Shown here piece by piece: positions 27,821 through 39,015 of a stretch of DNA of 64,000 nucleotides (position 1 is the first letter of the stretch; each line of letters starts with the position of its first letter). Below the pieces are notes generated by a model. It had not been told where the DNA came from. It searched no databases and saw only the letters and a program-made list of their open reading frames with translations. This DNA comes from a virus, in the IMG/VR virus record IMGVR_UViG_3300050821_003995, positions 1 to 64,000 of that record, one strand, 5' to 3'. Both the position numbers and the translations under genes were made by a program.

Positions 27821-28167
27821 TTGTGGGCCTTCAGCTTCCAGTACAAATTAACCATATCGGTTTGGGTCATATGAATAGCCCTGTAGAGAGCCTTACGATC
27901 AATCCACGAAAGCAAAACTTCGCGCCCAGTGCCACTATTGGTGCTGTTATCAGAATTTATCTTAGCTTCGGTCAAAAGTTTTATTCCATAGTCCTCATTG
28001 GCGGTCCAAATGCCCAGTGAAGAGCCCCTATGAACCATGACGTGAGAACCTACCACCCAGTTATTGCGGTTCTCAAGCAATCGAAGTACTTCCTGACAAG
28101 TAGGCGAAGGCTGCCGGTTGAGCCATCGCAGCCATATCCTTTCCCAAATGCACCGCCACCAGTTCAT
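27817..28167 (-). CDS. hypothetical protein
   Basis: 116 residues with a W-rich N-terminus (MNWWRCIWERIWLRWLN), amphipathic rather than transmembrane. ATGA overlaps with both neighbours mark it as part of the operon. Function unknown. Confidence 0.55.
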   Translation of the reverse strand: MNWWRCIWERIWLRWLNRQPSPTCQEVLRLLENRNNWVVGSHVMVHRGSSLGIWTANEDYGIKLLTEAKINSDNSTNSGTGREVLLSWIDRKALYRAIHMTQTDMVNLYWKLKAHK

Positions 28168-28643
28168 ACGGACACCACAACAACACCCCCAATGGCGCTG
28201 AACGCCAAGCAGCAGCCAACCGGGGTTATCTTGTTGGCAGGGACATAAAGACGTGGCAAGATATGCACAAACTCAGCGGCAGCAGGCAACAGTTCGGAAC
28301 AGATCCAGCGTTCGGGGTTGCGCCAATCGCGCCCGGTCACAAACCCCCAAATTGCAGAACTATCGTAAGGCTTGCCCACCTGATTGCGCAGGTAGCCATA
28401 GAAGCCCTGTTCCTGTTCGTCAGAGCAAGGAACTTCCATGACCACCCGGCGCACAAAGGTAGAATAATCAGCGGGCCGGATTTGCACCCCACCTTCAGTG
28501 CCACCAATAGGCCGATGCCGCGCCCCCAATAGCCGCCCGTCGGGGAATACAGCGTCCACGTGGCTGAACTCGCCGGCCCCAAACCAAGCAATCAAGCCTG
28601 AGGCCATGTGAGCTTCGCGCACGAACTGAAGGGTGATGGGCAT
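28164..28643 (-). CDS. papain-like NlpC/YiiX-type hydrolase
   Basis: 159 residues. FSHVDAVFPDGRLLGAR gives a catalytic histidine context, and RWICSELLPAA gives the cysteine in a C-S-E motif. GKPYDSSAIWGF lies between them as in phage YiiX/YebB-type permuted papain folds. Such enzymes cleave amide bonds in peptidoglycan or lipids. It may act in lysis together with the exported RlpA-like protein. Confidence 0.7.
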   Translation of the reverse strand: MPITLQFVREAHMASGLIAWFGAGEFSHVDAVFPDGRLLGARHRPIGGTEGGVQIRPADYSTFVRRVVMEVPCSDEQEQGFYGYLRNQVGKPYDSSAIWGFVTGRDWRNPERWICSELLPAAAEFVHILPRLYVPANKITPVGCCLAFSAIGGVVVVSV

Positions 28644-28965: not shown

Positions 28966-29250
28966 ATGAAACCGGCTACCACCAAGGATTTCAAAGCCAG
29001 ATTGCAGTGGCTGTACCCAGGACAGGAACTAAGCCACTGGTACTTGCTGTGCGATCCACAAACCGTGAGCCTGCCCACCTATATCAAGGGTAGGGCCAAA
29101 CGCACGCTGTTGAGGAACAGCCATCACGGTTGCTGGCGTCAGGTGATTACACTGGGTGACAAGAACTTGGACGGCGCGAATACCCAATGGGCATTTGTGG
29201 ACAACCCCGGCGTGCCAATCACGCTGGATGATTGTGAAGCCAAACGATAG
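28966..29250 (+). CDS. family 1 small protein (copy A)
   Basis: 94 residues with CAGGAA upstream of ATG. It carries the family 1 core VSLPTYIKGRAKRTLLRN at residues 34-51, preceded by SHWYLLCDPQ. At least six other small genes at 32.2-35.1 kb carry the same core. Function unknown. This copy is on the plus strand while most are on the minus strand. Confidence 0.6.
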   Translation: MKPATTKDFKARLQWLYPGQELSHWYLLCDPQTVSLPTYIKGRAKRTLLRNSHHGCWRQVITLGDKNLDGANTQWAFVDNPGVPITLDDCEAKR

Positions 29251-29464
29251 CATTTTCAGAATCTATATTGGCTACTCAGACGTGATCCTGAGAAGTATGT
29301 TATCTAAAGATATGAAGGTCAAATTCGTGGTGCGCAATTCGTGGGGAGGAGGCACCGCATACAGGCAGGGGGAGGACCTCTTTCATCTCATCGGGCCGTG
29401 CTTCCTGGGCGGTGGTGTCGTGCCAGTGGGGTGTGTCTGGAGCCATGCGGGGCTCTGGAGGAGC

Positions 29465-29486
29465 GCGGGAGCTTCTCAGCTCCCGC
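29465..29486. terminator. hairpin, probable minus-strand terminator
   Basis: Perfect eight-base stem GCGGGAGC/GCTCCCGC with a six-base loop. It lies between the plus gene ending at 29250 and the minus gene ending at 29522, so it may serve either. No long T-run follows on either side. Confidence 0.4.
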
Positions 29487-29509
29487 TTCCTGCTCCTCAG
29501 TGGGTTAGC

Positions 29510-29521
29510 GGGGGGGGGGGG
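29510..29521. repeat. poly-G tract (12 G)
   Basis: An uninterrupted run of 12 G just beyond the TAG of the 29522 gene. It could be variable in length or an assembly-sensitive homopolymer. Confidence 0.7.
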
Positions 29522-29713
29522 CTAGAGCTGCGCCAGAACGCCATCGCAGATCTTCTTACGGAGCTGGTGCGCGTCTATTGCGCGTTGACGCCACAACTCC
29601 ATTTGGGATGATCCGGTTGTCCACAAGCTGTTCTCACAGCGGCGGTACTCAGACTCAGCAACGGCCAATGCTTGATTAAGTGTCGCCATTTCCTCGGGGG
29701 TTAGCCTTGTCAT
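29522..29713 (-). CDS. 63-residue helical protein
   Basis: Starts MTRLTPEEMATLNQALA with AAGGAGC upstream. Two helices rich in charges, one C. Isolated between plus-strand genes. Function unknown. Confidence 0.55.
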   Translation of the reverse strand: MTRLTPEEMATLNQALAVAESEYRRCENSLWTTGSSQMELWRQRAIDAHQLRKKICDGVLAQL

Positions 29714-30026
29714 GATCCTGCTCCTTGTTCGTGCCCCTGCTGTGGGGCATTGCTTATTTCGATATCACGTTGCAGGCATAATCACAATGCACCTAGCTAT
29801 GAAAGATAGCATGGCGGTATGCAAACAAACATGCCTTTTCTCGTTTCAACCCCATTGTGTTTTGCCTTCAAATAAATTACTATTGTTTTGTTGGTTGGGC
29901 ACGGGCATATAGCCCTAAAGGCTCAAAATACTACCGCACTAGCCGCACTGAGCGGTTTGCAGGGTAGCCCAACGGGCCGCGCGGTGCGCCCACACAAAGT
30001 CACCGCACAAGCAAGGGTAAACTACA
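29714..30026 (+). promoter_or_regulatory. AT-rich upstream region of the 30027 gene
   Basis: 313 bases without a gene. The right part is AT-rich; TTGTTT, 17 bases, then CATATA at about 29884-29912 is a possible weak sigma-70-like promoter for the 30027 gene. Nothing else is recognised. Confidence 0.3.
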
Positions 30027-30521
30027 ATGGCACAAGTGAAGCATATCAGCTACTACACCAACGTCACCGCGTCATGGTCAAAAGCTGACCTGGGCAAAAT
30101 GCCCAGTGAGGCCAACCTGTCACTGGCGCACGTTTTTGGGCGGCCCGGCAAGCAAAGCATGGCCGTTGCAATGGCGTTGCGTGACGGCGGCGTGACCGGC
30201 AAGCAAATCAAGCTTGCCAGTGCGCTGTTTGACGGCAAGGCTACCCCGCAACTCAATCACATGCGTGACTTGATTGCGGCCAAGCTGTTCACCCGTGAGG
30301 CCGTCAGCGGCGCCTATGTGATAACCCTGGCACCCAAGGGTCAACAGTTTGTTGATCTGCACGGCGCCAAGGCGGCCGCCAAGGTGACCGGTGACAAACC
30401 GGCCGCCAAGGCCGCCAAGCCGCGCAAAGCCAAAAAGGTGAGCGTGGCGCCGGTCACTGAAACGCCTGTCAGTGAAGCCCCTACGGTCAGTGAAGGCCAA
30501 CCGGCTGAATTGACCGCCTAG
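30027..30521 (+). CDS. winged-helix-like protein with histone-like tail
   Basis: 164 residues. Residues 1-110 look like a winged helix (MRDLIAAKLFTREAVSGAYV as recognition helix and wing). Residues 112-164 are A/K/P/V-rich and disordered. Three other genes (43155, 43629, 59272) share the theme of a small DNA-binding domain with or without a low-complexity tail. It may be a nucleoid-associated or transcription protein. A plus-strand terminator follows. Confidence 0.55.
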   Translation: MAQVKHISYYTNVTASWSKADLGKMPSEANLSLAHVFGRPGKQSMAVAMALRDGGVTGKQIKLASALFDGKATPQLNHMRDLIAAKLFTREAVSGAYVITLAPKGQQFVDLHGAKAAAKVTGDKPAAKAAKPRKAKKVSVAPVTETPVSEAPTVSEGQPAELTA

Positions 30522-30583
30522 CCACCCTGCCCGGTTGCTGGCGCGCAAATGCGCCAGTGGCTGGGCATTTCACTTTTGAACGG

Positions 30584-30611
30584 GGCCGTCTTCGCGGCGG
30601 CCTCTTTTTCT
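30584..30611 (+). terminator. Rho-independent terminator
   Basis: Stem GGCCG/CGGCC with a short loop followed by TCTTTTTCTT. A second hairpin, CTGGCGC/GCGCCAG, lies just upstream. Both follow the stop at 30521. Confidence 0.7.
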
Positions 30612-30698
30612 TGTCCTTTTCCTTCTTCCTTCCCGCCCCAGCGCTTCTTCCAGAGCGCGACCGGAGGCTCGTCGACTCTAGACTGCGACCGGCTCATC

Positions 30699-31232
30699 TC
30701 AATCGTTCGCCCATCCGTGTCTTTTTGTCTTCTGGACAAATGTGTTCTTTGGTTGAAGCCTTCGAATCATCTCATCCAAGCGTTGTCGCTTAGGCTCATC
30801 GAGCTCATCCACGTGATCAGTCATCTTGGAGTAATAGTGTTTCTGCTTAATGCACTGAATCCTGTGCTTCGTGATCTTGTAGTCACCTGCAATTTCAGCG
30901 TAGTTCCGTTTGTCTAGATAGACTGCAAGCACAACAGCCATAGGAAGTTCTTTGTACACCCATCCTCGCGTAGACTTCCTATTGACGTTGTACTCAATGT
31001 GATTGTCTTGGCTCAGGATGCATTTGGTGTTGTCCCACGTGTATGGGCCTTTGTCTTCGTGACGTGCCATCACATATTGATCGCGACAACACCCACGTTT
31101 ATTCATCCAGTCATCGCCAAGATGGTGCTTCCACCAAACAACCCATTCATCGTAGGTGAAATCAAATTTAATGCCACGCCGTAGCGCCGTGCTCTTCTGC
31201 TGTCTGAACGCGGTACGAAGCTTGGAACGCAT
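30699..31232 (-). CDS. HNH-like homing protein (family copy 1)
   Basis: 177 residues. The core RGIKFDFTYDEWVVWWKHHL, DQYVMARHEDKGPYTWDN and KCILSQDNHIE is shared with the minus-strand genes at 36036 and 38590. The block resembles HNH/AP2-like phage homing endonucleases, in which the N-x-x-C-I element precedes a final N. A helix-turn-helix follows (YAEIAGDYKITKHRIQCIKQ). It is antisense to its surroundings, as an inserted mobile gene would be. Confidence 0.68.
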   Translation of the reverse strand: MRSKLRTAFRQQKSTALRRGIKFDFTYDEWVVWWKHHLGDDWMNKRGCCRDQYVMARHEDKGPYTWDNTKCILSQDNHIEYNVNRKSTRGWVYKELPMAVVLAVYLDKRNYAEIAGDYKITKHRIQCIKQKHYYSKMTDHVDELDEPKRQRLDEMIRRLQPKNTFVQKTKRHGWAND

Positions 31233-31910
31233 CTAGAACCCCTACACTACATTAGGCTCATCCTCTACACCTCTAGACACCAACTGTCTAGGTTACCCTA
31301 CGAGCGCAGCAATTACCCTCGCATTTAATCATGGTTTATTCGCTCAGCCTGTGGCATGGTGGTTTTGTTGTTAGCGGCACCTTGCCCCTGAAACCTGACA
31401 CCCTACCTAGCAGGTGCTTCAGGCTCACAGGTACCGGCCACAACACCGCCCCGGCTCAGGTTTGTTGCGTGCCGGGGCGGTTACTACCCAAAGGTTTTGA
31501 CCTGCCCCCGCAAGGCGCTAATGCGGCCGGGTGGTGACCGCCCTAGCAAAGGCTTTGCCTGGGATACGCCACCAAGCTCCCCGGCCTAGCCTAAAGGTGG
31601 TGACGCGGTTTGCCCCGTTAAGTACCCGCCCTAGTACCCCACAGGCAAATGTGGAGCAGGAAGACCGGTACTAGGTTAGGCGGGGGCCGATCAAAGCCTT
31701 ATGGTGTGTATTATGGAACGGTAACGTACTGCTGACCGAAGCCAATGACCCTGCCAACCTGTTGAATTGGGGAAGCGGGAAGTACAGGCAAGAATACCCG
31801 TTCTTCTGGATTGAGAGGAGCTCACCTGCGTCGCATTCGCTTGCGGCGACGAGCGCCTTACGCAGGCGTACCAACAAAATCGTCCAGAGTCAAGTCGGAG
31901 TCCAGAAGAT
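31233..31910. other. structured non-coding stretch with a possible decayed frame
   Basis: No good gene. Stem-loops lie at 31386-31423 (CCTGAA/TTCAGG plus ACCTG/CAGGT), 31446-31480 (perfect ten-base stem CCGCCCCGGC/GCCGGGGCGG) and 31626-31683 (CCGCC/GGCGG and CCTAGTACC/GGTACTAGG enclosing CCACA/TGTGG). A plus-strand frame from about 31679 to 31913 reads like protein (NGNVLLTEANDPANLLNWG) but has no usable start, so it may be a gene remnant. Confidence 0.5.
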
Positions 31911-31988
31911 TTAATAGCTGAAGATCACCCACAGAAGCAGGAACAGGACGATCAGCAATGTTAGCATTACACGGCTAGTCGAGTTCAT
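31911..31988 (-). CDS. 25-residue membrane peptide
   Basis: ATG at 31988 follows the previous TAG with no gap. It reads MNSTSRVMLTLLIVLFLLLW then VIFSY, a single transmembrane helix. Coupling to the upstream stop supports a real gene. Function unknown. Confidence 0.5.
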   Translation of the reverse strand: MNSTSRVMLTLLIVLFLLLWVIFSY

Positions 31989-32222
31989 CTATGTTATTAC
32001 TCTTGTCACACGTCTTAGATCACTGCCAATGCTAAGAACCTCAATGTGCTGCGCTCTGGACGCATTTATAAATAGGTTCGTCCACTCACGCTGGCATACC
32101 GGGCAATACGCTTTCCCATTCAGGATCGGTGCTCTGCTCCTAGGAGCCCAAACAAAGCCATCCGCATGCCACCGCCTAATCAACATTGTTTGACTATGTA
32201 TATTGCAAAACCAGCTTCTCAT
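31989..32222 (-). CDS. small protein with CxxC
   Basis: 77 residues with YCPVCQREW, a possible half zinc knuckle, and basic ends. Downstream of the family 1 operon and upstream of a tiny membrane peptide. Function unknown. Confidence 0.45.
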   Translation of the reverse strand: MRSWFCNIHSQTMLIRRWHADGFVWAPRSRAPILNGKAYCPVCQREWTNLFINASRAQHIEVLSIGSDLRRVTRVIT

Positions 32223-32231
32223 CCTGTATTC

Positions 32232-32498
32232 CTAAGATCGCCGAATACCTAGAATACTCTTTTTCAACTGTTGAAAGATTGACGCTTTAGGCTTGTCTAT
32301 ATCAAAAGGTGCCTGCTTTGGCTTCTCATACCCCACAAACTGATCGTGCCTGATAAATACCTTCCCGTCACGCATCTTCATAATACCCCGTGCCTTGCCT
32401 TCTATCACCTGAAACAGTGTGAATTGGGCGTCCGTTCTGTACCAGTACCCATCGTCATCCTGCCAACCTTTCAGTTCAGTTTTTGTGTCCTCACTCAC
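32232..32498 (-). CDS. family 1 small protein (copy B)
   Basis: 88 residues, GTG start overlapping the upstream stop (GTGA). The core is LFQVIEGKARGIMKMRDGKV at residues 28-47, preceded by GYWYRTDAQ. It has lost the usual P before the aromatic residue. Last family member in the minus-strand operon. Function unknown. Confidence 0.6.
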   Translation of the reverse strand: MSEDTKTELKGWQDDDGYWYRTDAQFTLFQVIEGKARGIMKMRDGKVFIRHDQFVGYEKPKQAPFDIDKPKASIFQQLKKSILGIRRS

Positions 32499-32770
32499 GG
32501 TATTTCATCCCTCCAAAGCATCCACGCCTGCCAGCCCACCAGTACTTGGATCGTTACGCCCATTGCTTCCAGCTTCTTGAGTGTCAACTTCTCATTATTG
32601 ATTGCTCTTTCAGCTTCATCTACCCAGCTTGGTGTGTAATGATCTTTATCCAGCCTTTGAGTGATCCTGTCTAATGCGCCCGGCATGAATACGTGTTGGG
32701 CTTCCAGTTGCCTGAGCGTGGTTGCAATGATGTCCCTGGTTGAGATCATCTGGGTGTGCTCCGTGCCCAT
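32495..32770 (-). CDS. helical hypothetical protein in family 1 operon
   Basis: 91 residues, mostly helical (IIATTLRQLEAQHVF, EAERAINNEKLTLKKLEAMG), without the family 1 core. ATGA-type overlaps to both neighbours. Function unknown. Confidence 0.55.
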   Translation of the reverse strand: MGTEHTQMISTRDIIATTLRQLEAQHVFMPGALDRITQRLDKDHYTPSWVDEAERAINNEKLTLKKLEAMGVTIQVLVGWQAWMLWRDEIP

Positions 32771-32955
32771 TCATCCTGTGAATCCTTGATCTTAACATAA
32801 ATTTCCCCATTGACCCGCTTCATCGTACCCTTGGCATTCCCCTCAATCCATTGTGGCACCGTGACACCTGCCGGGTGTACCCTGATCCACCTGATCCAGT
32901 TGCCCTTGCCATCATCCTCCAGCATGGTGCCGTTGTAAAATTCCCTGACGGTCAT
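32746..32955 (-). CDS. family 1 small protein (copy C)
   Basis: 69 residues. Core VTVPQWIEGNAKGTMKRVNG at residues 30-49 after NWIRWIRVHPAG. It overlaps the upstream and downstream genes by four and 25 bases. Function unknown. Confidence 0.65.
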   Translation of the reverse strand: MTVREFYNGTMLEDDGKGNWIRWIRVHPAGVTVPQWIEGNAKGTMKRVNGEIYVKIKDSQDEWARSTPR

Positions 32956-33215
32956 CTTGTTGATGTCCTTGGTGCGCCCATGACCAAATAGCTTGGCAGC
33001 GAGAAAATTGTCTGATTGCTCTTGATAATCTCAATAGGTGCCAGCAGGAACACCCTGTTGCAATCACACGTCCTGAAATGAATCTTTTCATGCACAAGTT
33101 TAACATCATAGCCAAGCTCCATGGTTCCCCTGGCCCTGCCTTCAATCCACCTAGGAATACTGATCTTGTCCCTGTTGATTACAAACCACCAAAACTGCGG
33201 TAGAATATTAGTCAT
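32952..33215 (-). CDS. family 1 small protein (copy D)
   Basis: 87 residues. Core ISIPRWIEGRARGTMELG at residues 17-34, after WWFVINRDK. A C-terminal extension follows with two cysteines (FRTCDCNR). ATGA overlaps on both sides. Function unknown. Confidence 0.65.
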   Translation of the reverse strand: MTNILPQFWWFVINRDKISIPRWIEGRARGTMELGYDVKLVHEKIHFRTCDCNRVFLLAPIEIIKSNQTIFSLPSYLVMGAPRTSTR

Positions 33216-33406
33216 GATCGTGGGATTGTCCTCAGGATGTATAGGGCGCCGTACATTTTCTTGATCGTCCCCCTTGCGGTTCTCTCAATATACTCGGGAA
33301 GAGTCAGGCTTTTGAGTTCTACCGGTTCCCAATAACTTTGGGTGTTGTCTTCGTTCATCGGTTCCCACACCCTGGTGGGCTTGGTCCAGTGCGGTGGCCA
33401 GTTCAT
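33212..33406 (-). CDS. family 1 small protein (copy E)
   Basis: 64 residues. Core LTLPEYIERTARGTIKKMYG at residues 34-53, preceded by SYWEPVELK. Start directly follows the TAG of the next gene upstream (TAGATG). Function unknown. Confidence 0.65.
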   Translation of the reverse strand: MNWPPHWTKPTRVWEPMNEDNTQSYWEPVELKSLTLPEYIERTARGTIKKMYGALYILRTIPRS

Positions 33407-33703
33407 CTAGTCGTTCTCGTACAAGTAGTTGCCCCTTCTCACGGCTAGCGTTTTGCCCTCATGTTCGTATGAGGCTTCTTCAAACGCATGGCCGGTTGAC
33501 ATCCCTGCTAGGGTTTCGGTTTGCAGCGAGCCATCATCCAGCAGTTGCAGGCATTCGTATTCCCATACCTTGCTGCCGTCAGCGTCATCCGCACCCGCAT
33601 CGTGCACCGGGCAACCTGCGCTGCCGCCCGCATTACACGTACAGGTCTTCCAGCCTAAGCCTAGGTGCTTGACCACCCATTTTTCGTCGGCGGTTTGTGA
33701 CAT
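33407..33703 (-). CDS. acidic cysteine-containing protein
   Basis: 98 residues from ATG at 33703, with AAGGAGG nine bases upstream. A TCTCNAGGSAGCPVH stretch has four cysteines with a histidine, a likely zinc site. The rest is acidic. No family recognised. Confidence 0.6.
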   Translation of the reverse strand: MSQTADEKWVVKHLGLGWKTCTCNAGGSAGCPVHDAGADDADGSKVWEYECLQLLDDGSLQTETLAGMSTGHAFEEASYEHEGKTLAVRRGNYLYEND

Positions 33704-33705
33704 CT

Positions 33706-34083
33706 TCATCCTCCTTTCTTTTTGTTGCTCAGCCACACCCAAAATTCCCGCGTCAGGTGTTGCTGGTAGTTTTGCCAATAGGAATGCTTTTGCCGTGCCC
33801 GCAGCAAATCTTTGGTGATGGGGAATTTCATCACATTGGCAAACCTGTACTGATTGCTGTCGGAATCAGGTGAGGCTGCCTGGGCAATGTGCCAAGCCCA
33901 TGCGGCCGCCCGTTGCTGCGGCGTGCGTCGGTCAACAGCGCAAGCCTCAACCATTTTACGGCCGCCCATGCCGCTTGCCTTGCGGGCTTGCGCTGCCGCT
34001 GCCGTGGGGTTGGCCGCGTAGGCAAAATGCCATTCATGCCATGCCCCGTTTGTGAGATTCACCTTGTACCATTCTTTGGCCAT
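33706..34083 (-). CDS. hypothetical protein
   Basis: 125 residues. The N-terminus (MAKEWYKVNLTNGAWHEWHF) suggests a beta hairpin; the middle is alanine rich, the end basic (KKKGG). Its stop sits inside the ribosome site of the next gene. Function unknown. Confidence 0.55.
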   Translation of the reverse strand: MAKEWYKVNLTNGAWHEWHFAYAANPTAAAAQARKASGMGGRKMVEACAVDRRTPQQRAAAWAWHIAQAASPDSDSNQYRFANVMKFPITKDLLRARQKHSYWQNYQQHLTREFWVWLSNKKKGG

Positions 34084-34189
34084 GATGCTTCACCTTGGTT
34101 TGGGTTTAACAGCGCAGCATAGCAAACCTGGGGCGAAGTTTCACCTGGGATTATGGAGATCTTGCGACTGAGCGTTTCACCGGCACGTT

Positions 34190-34468
34190 TCACGTTCCAT
34201 GTTTGTCTCCATACAGCATCTTGATCAGGTCCTGATCCATTTGATCATACATCCCGTCCAGTGCTGCCTTGCGTTCTTCCTCAACCTGAGCGTTGTATTC
34301 GTCCCACGTCATCGGTATGAGTTCCCGAATGACGCCGTTTTCACGCTTCATCGTGCCGCGTGCGCGCTTCTCAATGAACTCTGGAAGTGGGACACGGCGG
34401 GTGACAGTCTTCCAGAATGCCGCCAGGGCATTCGGCTTGAGGGTGTCGCTCTCAAACTCTGGTTCCAT
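34190..34468 (-). CDS. family 1 small protein (copy F)
   Basis: 92 residues. Core VPLPEFIEKRARGTMKRENG at residues 27-46 after AFWKTVTRR, then a helical tail. Overlaps copy G by 17 bases. Function unknown. Confidence 0.65.
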   Translation of the reverse strand: MEPEFESDTLKPNALAAFWKTVTRRVPLPEFIEKRARGTMKRENGVIRELIPMTWDEYNAQVEEERKAALDGMYDQMDQDLIKMLYGDKHGT

Positions 34469-35084
34469 GCTTCATCTCATTGCGCTTGCGGTCCAGCAGT
34501 TTCTTGATCTCATCTTTGGGCATGGTGCCAAGCTTTGCCAACAGTTCGCGCACCTTGGGATCACGTGGCCGTGACCGTTCGGGTATCTTGCGACCAAGCA
34601 TGGCGCAGCTATTGGCACGCTTGCGCTTGTGATCCTTGCCCGTCCACGTGATATAACCCAATAGTATTCCCAACGCGGCGGCACGTCCATATTCGTGGCT
34701 TGAGTAGGTAATGTGTTCTTCCCATGTTTGACCCTCGTGCTGCCTCATGGTGCCCTTGGCGCGTCCTTCAATAAACTCAGGCAGCGGGGTCGTCCCTTTG
34801 GGCAAGATCAGCCATTCACGATGCTTGTGCTGCATGATCTTGAACGGCATGTTGGCCATCGCATCGCGCCACTTCTCAAACCAATAGCCTTTGTCGCGCG
34901 TGTCCCATTCGTGCTTGAGGGGAACCGCTTTGATCGCGGTGGCATTCTTTTGGTAACGGGTAAATGTTTCCAGAGCATCATCATCAGACGATGCTGGTGT
35001 CTTACACCAATCCTTATAGGGCTCTTGCTCATAGCCCAGGTTATCCAATGGCTGGTATTGCCAGTACCTTACGTCATACCACAT
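34452..35084 (-). CDS. family 1 large member (copy G)
   Basis: 210 residues, the longest of the family. Residues 1-90 are a W/Y-rich segment, then REWLILPKGTTPLPEFIEGR and AKGTMRQHEG form the core at about residues 91-118. A basic lysine-rich C-terminus follows (RPRDPKVRELLAKLG, KKLLDRKRNEMKH). It is first in the minus-strand operon, below a terminator that separates it from other minus-strand transcription. Function unknown. Confidence 0.65.
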   Translation of the reverse strand: MWYDVRYWQYQPLDNLGYEQEPYKDWCKTPASSDDDALETFTRYQKNATAIKAVPLKHEWDTRDKGYWFEKWRDAMANMPFKIMQHKHREWLILPKGTTPLPEFIEGRAKGTMRQHEGQTWEEHITYSSHEYGRAAALGILLGYITWTGKDHKRKRANSCAMLGRKIPERSRPRDPKVRELLAKLGTMPKDEIKKLLDRKRNEMKHGTRV

Positions 35085-35130
35085 ACCAGCACCCTAGCAT
35101 ATTGATAACGAGTTTGCAGCGAAAATTAAA

Positions 35131-35161
35131 GAGCCAGCGCCTTTCTATCGGCCGCTGGCTC
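35131..35161 (-). terminator. Rho-independent terminator on the minus strand
   Basis: Perfect nine-base stem GAGCCAGCG/CGCTGGCTC. Reading the minus strand it is followed by TTTAATTTT. It would stop transcription coming from the 36 kb HNH-like gene before the family 1 operon. Confidence 0.7.
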
Positions 35162-35541
35162 CAGTTCCAAAAAGGTCCAATTTGGGGGGGTTACTTCATG
35201 CTCATCCTCCTAAGTCATTGCTGGTGCCACCCCACAATCACTTTGGCGTGCCCACACAGTAATTCACCTAACCGGCGAACTTGCAACAGAATTTTTGGAC
35301 CGCATCGCATCAACTCGTAATTAGGCGTAGTTTATTCGTTTGAAATTTGCTGTAGTGGTTAAGTGTGCCCTGTAGTCGTCACCTTGGCGGCTTTGACCGG
35401 GCACGTTTTGATAGGGGCACCTAACCCCTAGCTGCGCTGCCCCAGTGTACCGGGCAGCCTATGATAACAACGGGCAAACCTCAACCGTTGCCAAGCAAGC
35501 CGGTCAAACCGGCACGCTGCACTTGATGGGATAAACTGATA
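35162..35541. other. non-coding stretch with stem-loops
   Basis: No gene. Stem-loops occur at 35365-35404 (GTGCCC/GGGCAC), 35412-35430 (TAGGGG/CCCCTA), 35436-35458 (GCTGCCC/GGGCAGC) and 35499-35513 (GCCGGT/ACCGGC). The run lies just upstream of the small basic gene at 35542 and could be its leader RNA. Confidence 0.45.
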
Positions 35542-36035: not shown

Positions 36036-36515
36036 CTAACCTTTGATGCCAATAGAAGCGCGTGTTTTTCTTGAGGGTAAGTTCTGTGTTACGTGTTTCC
36101 AATACTTGCCCCGGCATATGTCCTGAACATAACCACGGTTTAGGCCATATTGCCGGGCAAGCTTCTTGTACCCCAATGGTGATGTGTAAAGAGCAATGAC
36201 TTGTTCTTTAGTCAATTTAGCATTGTGGTGGTTCTCACCACATCTTGCTAGATGATTGCAATTATACTTACCAGCCGCAGTGTTCTCAGTTGCTAAAATG
36301 CACTGAACATTGTTTGGATGATAAGGGCCAACATCATTGTTCCGTGCCATTACATATTGACCATGATGCAACCCCCGCTTCTCAAACCAGCGGTAACCTA
36401 GGTGGTCTTCCCACCACTCAACCCATTCATCGAATGTAAATTGAAACTTGATGCCCCGGTTCCTGGCGGCAGAACGCTGCCAACTAAAAGCATCACGTAT
36501 TCTATCTTTTGACAT
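36036..36515 (-). CDS. HNH-like homing protein (family copy 2)
   Basis: 159 residues from ATG at 36515 (AAGGGGCAC upstream). It shares RGIKFQFTFDEWVEWWEDHL, GQYVMARNNDVGPYHPNN and VQCILATEN with the 30699 and 38590 genes. A following helix-turn-helix (KLTKEQVIALYTSPLGYKKL) is typical of HNH homing proteins. It lies antisense between plus-strand genes. Confidence 0.68.
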   Translation of the reverse strand: MSKDRIRDAFSWQRSAARNRGIKFQFTFDEWVEWWEDHLGYRWFEKRGLHHGQYVMARNNDVGPYHPNNVQCILATENTAAGKYNCNHLARCGENHHNAKLTKEQVIALYTSPLGYKKLARQYGLNRGYVQDICRGKYWKHVTQNLPSRKTRASIGIKG

Positions 36516-36587
36516 AAGTGCCCCTTGATTGAATTGTATATAACAACACATAACCCGACCCCACAACCTCAAACTAAGGAGACTGCA

Positions 36588-36979: not shown

Positions 36980-37429
36980 ATGTCGACACGTGCCTTATAC
37001 TCGTTCATCGGTGACGATGGTAGCTACAACATCTACAAACACCACGATGGATATCCAAGTGGGGCTGCAAAAGCAATAAAATGCACCATCGACTGGTTTG
37101 CGTGGCAATTACCACGCTACGAAAGCGATGAATTTGCAGCGGCGTTCTGTGCTGCCGGGAAAACTCATAGCTTTGAGAACGTTGACGAACTTGTTCTTTA
37201 TGCCACAAACTATGGCCCGAAGGGTCAGTACCACACTTCCAAAGGTGGTGGCGTGCGTCTCATGCCACAAGGCAACCCCGGTGAGGTGGCTTGCAAGAAT
37301 TGCAGCGACATTGCGTACCGCTATGAGATCAAAATGGGCACGCCACTTCCCGAATATATTGAAAAACGCGCCCGTAAGATTGCACAAACCCCAACCCTTC
37401 TTGTCAAAGCATTTGAAGGCAATTGGTAG
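36980..37429 (+). CDS. phage protein with family 1-like motif, interrupted by an amber codon
   Basis: 149 residues to a TAG at 37427-37429. The N-terminus (ALYSFIGDDGSYNIYKHHDG) looks like a conserved phage domain. Near the end GTPLPEYIEKRARK matches the family 1 core. The same frame stays open after the TAG for 28 more codons to TAA at 37516 and reads like protein (KETEIFSGTFDKFYTWVM). Either the TAG is a mutation or it is read through. TAG is used as a normal stop elsewhere here, so recoding is not general. Confidence 0.6.
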   Translation: MSTRALYSFIGDDGSYNIYKHHDGYPSGAAKAIKCTIDWFAWQLPRYESDEFAAAFCAAGKTHSFENVDELVLYATNYGPKGQYHTSKGGGVRLMPQGNPGEVACKNCSDIAYRYEIKMGTPLPEYIEKRARKIAQTPTLLVKAFEGNW

Positions 37430-38589: not shown

Positions 38590-39015
38590 TTAGATGTGTT
38601 TCCAAGTTTTTCTAGCTCTAATCAACCAAATGTTATTATGGACTACCTTGTATCTTTTAGCTAATAGGGAGAGTGGCTCTTTTGATGCCCTGATTTCCAA
38701 AACTTGTTTTTCAGTCAACTTAGAACACGCACATGCAGACCCAATAGCTTCTTCACGCTCAGCCGTATTGGTTCGATTGGTTATACATTTTATGTTTCCC
38801 CTTTCGTAAGGCCCCTTATCGCCTTTGCGGGCCATGCAGTATTTGCCCGCACCACGTCCACGCAATTCAAACCAATTTGAGCCTAGTTGCTCGACCCACC
38901 ACACAATCCAGTCTTGCACTGTAAACTTAAACCCAATGCGCCGGCAACGAGCCATGCGACGTTGGTTCCAATAGGCTGTTCGATGAGCATAAGGGATAGG
39001 ACTACGGTGTGACAC
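38590..39015 (-). CDS. HNH-like homing protein (family copy 3)
   Basis: 141 residues, GTG start with AGGAG upstream. Shares RIGFKFTVQDWIVWWVEQLG, GKYCMARKGDKGPYERGN and IKCITNRTNTAE with the other two copies. The C-terminal HTH reads KLTEKQVLEIRASKEPLSLL. It is tail to tail with the plus-strand gene with no spacing. Confidence 0.68.
   Translation of the reverse strand: MSHRSPIPYAHRTAYWNQRRMARCRRIGFKFTVQDWIVWWVEQLGSNWFELRGRGAGKYCMARKGDKGPYERGNIKCITNRTNTAEREEAIGSACACSKLTEKQVLEIRASKEPLSLLAKRYKVVHNNIWLIRARKTWKHI

Follow-up and report, generated by a model that had tools for sequence, protein, structure and literature searches.

Does the repeated motif scattered among small genes of one phage mark a single protein family, and if so, what could such a family do? 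The locus lies in an IMG/VR virus record of 95,021 bases, within its first 64 kb, and this 64,000-nucleotide stretch is referred to here as the window. It belongs to a tailed phage, in which genes for an amidase, the portal and the terminase large subunit occupy the minus strand between 1 and 20 kb, while helicases, a primase and a methyltransferase-like gene occupy the plus strand from 50 kb. No DNA-level match to the region was found among GenBank phages, and the best identity of the window terminase is 52%, to a Microcystis phage terminase.

The shared core defines one family

All eight open reading frames singled out in an earlier note on this DNA are present where it placed them (Table 1). 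Their common core of approximately 38 residues runs from a Trp strand through (L/V/I)PxxIExxA(R/K)G(T)M to a hairpin. A profile built from the eight cores recovered exactly those eight from the six-frame translation of the 95-kb record, and no ninth copy was found there. For a jackknife, each member was left out in turn and the profile of the others was run on the 2,190 open frames that six-frame translation of the complete record yields. The left-out members scored E values of 1.1e-12 to 3.1e-4 (17-44 bits) and the best non-member frame 0.085-0.41, so that each left-out member outranked all non-family frames; the top score among 8,000 shuffled copies was 11 bits. The core matches are thus far better than chance, and the proposal of one family stands.

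Full cores, with the Trp strand, PxxIExxA(R/K) and the hairpin, number seven in the window and four and three in two related phage contigs, L018 and L019, in agreement with the repeated duplication that had been proposed; g36980 carries the helix part only. The strong divergence reported outside the core was also found, as the termini differ widely from member to member around a conserved core, and the proteins have little else in common. The core had been described as following a W-rich strand. A predicted strand with one invariant Trp does precede the motif in 14 of 14 full cores from the three phages, but there is no long W-rich stretch. In-frame codon usage beats every other frame for most members, the exception being g32955, whose core is nevertheless clear. 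A look-alike in contig L005 (WIEDKASGTI; PVWIEDKASGTI) belongs to a different, terminase large-subunit-like protein in a different context. It was matched only by a pattern in which Ile replaces Met, unlike the family core, and its profile E value of 0.6 is that expected by chance.

Table 1. Genes of the family and core-less genes within the cluster.
Gene	Position	Strand	Length (aa)	Core	Remarks
g28966	28966-29250	+	94	29032-29151	most divergent core, LPTYIKGRAKRTL
g32235	32232-32498	-	88	32337-32456	GTG start; core with LFQVIEGKARGIM; likely orthologue L018:11409-11642
g32498	32495-32770	-	91	absent	same place in L018, 59% identity
g32749	32746-32955	-	69	32779-32898
g32955	32952-33215	-	87	33078-33197
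g33215	33212-33406	-	64	33221-33340	likely orthologue L018:10642-10818
g33410	33407-33778	-	≤123	absent	start uncertain; non-family, inside cluster
g33709	33706-34083	-	125	absent	non-family, inside cluster
g34193	34190-34468	-	92	34307-34426	likely orthologue L018:10808-11137
g34455	34452-35084	-	210	34704-34823	first cluster gene
g36980	36980-37429	+	149	37334-37381 (helix piece only)	GTPLPEYIEKRARKIA

Organization of the gene cluster

Six members (g34455, g34193, g33215, g32955, g32749 and g32235) form a minus-strand cluster extending from 35084 to 32232. The earlier note had counted five or more in one operon; the packed arrangement is correct, with the number corrected to six and with three core-less genes (g33709, g33410 and g32498) lying among them. 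Gene ends mostly overlap or touch in ATGA/GTGA-type junctions (ATGA-type for g33215/g32955 and g32955/g32749), with one 17-base overlap, between g34193 and the end of g34455, and one 25-base overlap; the exception to this packing is a gap of approximately 106 bases before g33709. The members differ in what surrounds the core. In g34455, an N-terminal strand-strand-helix-strand and a long helix precede the core domain, and basic C-terminal helices follow it. g34193 has an acidic C-terminal tail ending in LYGDKHGT, and g33215 is the closest to a minimal domain. g28966 is isolated on the plus strand, far from the cluster, and no counterpart was found in L018 or L019.

A scan for promoters and terminators revealed nothing clearly above chance. 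In the minus-strand leader before the first cluster gene (35090-35240), a ribosome-binding site resembling AGGAGG precedes what may be a very short frame (ATG AGC ATG AAG TAA); next comes an inverted repeat, GAGCCAGCG...CGCTGGCTC, which has a T-rich tail. This leader may encode a leader peptide or act as an attenuator.

Several other features were observed in the surroundings. Related HNH-like proteins of the homing-endonuclease type are scattered around the cluster (30699-31232, 36036-36572 and 38590-39015, all on the minus strand), the first two with matches to PHROG 16521 or weak HNH matches; their relative in L019 (2597-3448) is at a different location, beside the homologue of the 41893 gene. 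A strong terminator-like hairpin of 18 pairs (30528-30567, plus strand) directly follows the 30027 gene, and the relatives have this gene at 72-85% identity. The minus-strand gene at 28164-28643 encodes a 159-aa protein that matches PHROG 1128 (E 2e-10), a group filed under moron / host takeover.

Distribution of the family

We took a match above the curated cut-off or with E<1e-3 as membership of a described family, and none was obtained in Pfam, PHROGs, NCBIfam or PADLOC. The best Pfam match (PapB, E 0.0031) was below its cut-off and outside the core; the best E values were 0.11 for a core and 0.0085 for a whole member in PHROGs, 0.056 in NCBIfam and 0.016 among the PADLOC defence-system models. 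Sequence searches of the PDB with core, extended-core and N-terminal profiles returned nothing. Searching GenBank phages and plasmids by tblastn with the members and consensus cores yielded chance matches only, and the match in Burkholderia phage FLC6 is to an unrelated protein. A pattern scan of 84,980 GTDB genomes, which like that of IMG/VR registers near-intact motifs only, yielded three chance matches. No description of such a family was found in literature searches. That the family had not been recognised from sequence agrees with the lack of a homologue in Pfam, PHROGs, NCBIfam, the PDB, GenBank phages, plasmids and GTDB genomes, and the profile of the eight cores matched no known domain of known role.

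Among the IMG/VR contigs scanned, L018 and L019 (76,451 and 78,457 bases) are the only other carriers. Around the cluster, which is tight in all three phages, both align collinearly with the window. In L018 the full core genes and a counterpart of g32498 form a single run, and in L019 the cluster is reduced relative to the window. The core is absent from the TerL-related contigs L006, L007, L010, L013 and L014, several of which end short of the region. Within the databases and collections searched, the family thus appears to be confined to one rare phage lineage. Small orphan families of such restricted range are common in phage genomes; this family is itself new, but its kind is ordinary.

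The duplications are old and the signal lies in the protein

At least four paralogues have their own best match in L018 (g34455 with L018:10001, g34193 with L018:10808, g33215 with L018:10642 and g32235 with L018:11409), and g34455 is also paired with L019:10001. The duplications therefore predate the split between the window phage and L018. g34455 shares 63% identity with its orthologue in L018 and 54% with that in L019. For the g34455 and g34193 orthologue pairs dN/dS is 0.23-0.25, inside the span of 0.08-0.32 shown by the other genes that were compared; the g33215 and g32235 pairs are saturated at synonymous sites and hence uninformative. The measurable orthologues appear to be under purifying selection at an ordinary rate, and the faster protein evolution expected from an arms race is not apparent. 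An arms race with host factors had been suggested to explain the duplications, but their age, these rates and the lack of a PADLOC match do not support that interpretation. A tree of the cores did not resolve, as 40 residues are too few.

A short motif repeated across genes, and present or absent within one gene, would also be expected of a DNA or RNA element, a site or signal inside the genes of which the peptide is a by-product. However, third codon positions vary freely in the motif, and when two copies share a residue within the 13-residue motif, they encode it with the same codon 35% of the time, compared with 34% expected from the codon usage of the phage. As same-codon use equals chance, the conserved signal resides at the protein level, among copies that are old; the probability left to a nucleic acid element is negligible.

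Predicted structure of the core

An AlphaFold2 model of g32749 was obtained from a 16-row alignment. It has strands at residues 3-7, 10-14 and 20-26 (the Trp strand), a helix at 33-42 (PxxIExxA(R/K)), strands at 45-48 and 51-56, and a helix at 60-66, with block pLDDT values of 88-93 over residues 21-50. The core is thus confidently predicted to be a small α/β domain of about 40-55 residues. The model of g34455, built from three sequences only and with an overall pLDDT of 76, contains the same strand-helix-strand-strand after its N-terminal region. With a threshold of E<1e-3, Foldseek returned no match for either model. For the 69-aa model the best E value was 0.5 in the PDB and 0.21 in BFVD, and for the 210-aa model it was 0.069 in the PDB. 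Structure prediction, one of the checks suggested in the earlier note, therefore gives a confident domain for which no known fold was found in the PDB; the viral models, compared with the small model, likewise gave none. The N-terminal region of the 210-aa member (34908-35084, minus strand) is the probable source of its weak YkzG and LX/eL20-type Foldseek matches; a profile of this region found nothing in the PDB.

All 14 full cores have a basic residue at model position 42, where the helix ends, and 12 of them have Glu at position 38. Trp, Ile and Ala, which are invariant, seem to pack the hydrophobic core, and by helical-wheel reasoning Glu38 and the basic residue 42 should point away from the face that these form. 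The pair, being four residues apart, could also be a helix-stabilising salt bridge.

A helix piece in g36980

The eighth gene, originally listed as probable, was found with E 7.9e-6 by a profile that included related-phage homologues and excluded g36980, but the match covers core positions 10-25 only, a helix piece of approximately 16 residues. The piece, GTPLPEYIEKRARKIA, lies between ...YRYEI and LLVKAF... in a β-hairpin, and over 13 residues it is identical to g34193 at 10 positions and to g34455 at nine. The L019 orthologue of g36980 has GTPLPKAIEGIARK at the equivalent place; this sequence is too weak for an independent profile and counts only through orthology. In the L018 orthologue the helix piece is absent, and YRYEV passes to LHVKAF via a short turn. 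These three sequences are consistent with either an insertion before the window/L019 split or a loss in L018. As the piece occurs alone in the hairpin of the g36980 protein and its L019 orthologue and is absent from that of L018, the helix seems portable to other proteins, although a piece of this length could be partly convergent. This graft is the most unusual element of the family. g36980 also shows a weak match to PHROG 1987 (unknown function; E 0.0085), which involves residues 1-34 at the N-terminus and is distinct from the helix piece, a separate insert near the C-terminus.

Possible roles of the domain

Our tentative preference is for a docking or assembly domain that all members share and to which variable parts are attached. 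An ancestor of the phage lineage would have duplicated a small folded domain and added differing N- and C-terminal parts. In this domain the hydrophobic core would be built from the invariant Trp, Ile and Ala. The helix face bearing Glu and Arg/Lys would contact a single partner common to all members, which may be a host or phage protein or the other paralogues themselves, and what each protein does at that partner would depend on its variable parts. The Glu and basic residue are kept across otherwise differing paralogues, which a common partner explains better than different targets would; that this face binds such a partner, and what the partner is, we infer only. In a bolder version, which we think improbable, the domain is a phage invention whose recognition helix is movable and was grafted into the β-hairpin turn of an unrelated protein, and the proteins are adaptors that all bind one partner. 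Alternatively, the paralogues might use the core to join one another in one phage complex, as Sm-like proteins do. Co-linear overlapping genes, the retention of at least four members as distinct orthologues in two phages and the common conserved helix face are consistent with such a complex, but the number of copies in the cluster varies from six in the window to four in L018 and three in L019, and one member is distant and on the opposite strand, which makes this arrangement rather unlikely.

Early host-takeover proteins of lytic phages are small and encoded in accessory regions, and many are of unknown function. T4 MotB is one example (PMC6070864). The present proteins could be a set of this type, in which the domain is a stable scaffold and each paralogue acts early in infection to block or divert a host target of its own; this version of the idea in the earlier note does without rapid evolution. 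We regard this as doubtful, yet nearly as likely as a docking domain. The proteins are small, numerous and lineage-restricted, no structural or enzymatic domain was recognised in them, and the packed cluster has the late-gene side (portal and terminase, minus strand) on one flank and the replication side (helicases and primase, plus strand) on the other. On gene size and position, a host-factor role is possible. However, a pure scaffold needs no conserved exposed-looking helix residues, the orthologues evolve under purifying selection at an ordinary rate, and the defence-system models gave no match. No sequence relation to host-takeover proteins such as MotB was seen, and the present set contains 6-8 repeats of one domain.

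It is very unlikely that the family is a distant relative of a known domain, with the 210-aa member related to RF-1/ArfB-type ribosome rescue factors or containing an RNA-polymerase epsilon-like or ribosomal LX-like region. With the 210-aa orthologues, hmmsearch matched residues 98-170 to ArfB/YaeJ at E 0.1, and SLPEYYKER ... GVIVIK ... in the RF-1 domain of ArfB/YaeJ (PDB 7jt1, 4v95, 2rtx) resembles the core and following residues of that member. Weak Foldseek matches to YkzG, an RNA polymerase subunit, and to ribosomal eL20/LX-type proteins have small-target TM scores of 0.44-0.58 and E values of 0.5-1.2. None of these matches is significant, the N-terminal profile alone finds nothing, and the small members match none of these domains. 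The ArfB/YaeJ likeness was not seen for other members or by Foldseek, and we rejected this assignment: the core proteins that were read have no GGQ catalytic motif, and no release-factor structure is among the Foldseek matches listed.

Significance of the family

The original observation is confirmed and slightly extended, by two more phages, a predicted fold and an insertion or loss in g36980. The locus is a clean example of a phage lineage building a set of small accessory proteins out of one orphan domain. If the docking domain does have a shared partner, that partner would be a host or phage machine in which this lineage invests many genes. The presence and absence of the helix piece in the g36980 protein would then capture a stage, seldom seen, in how a binding element spreads from one protein to another.
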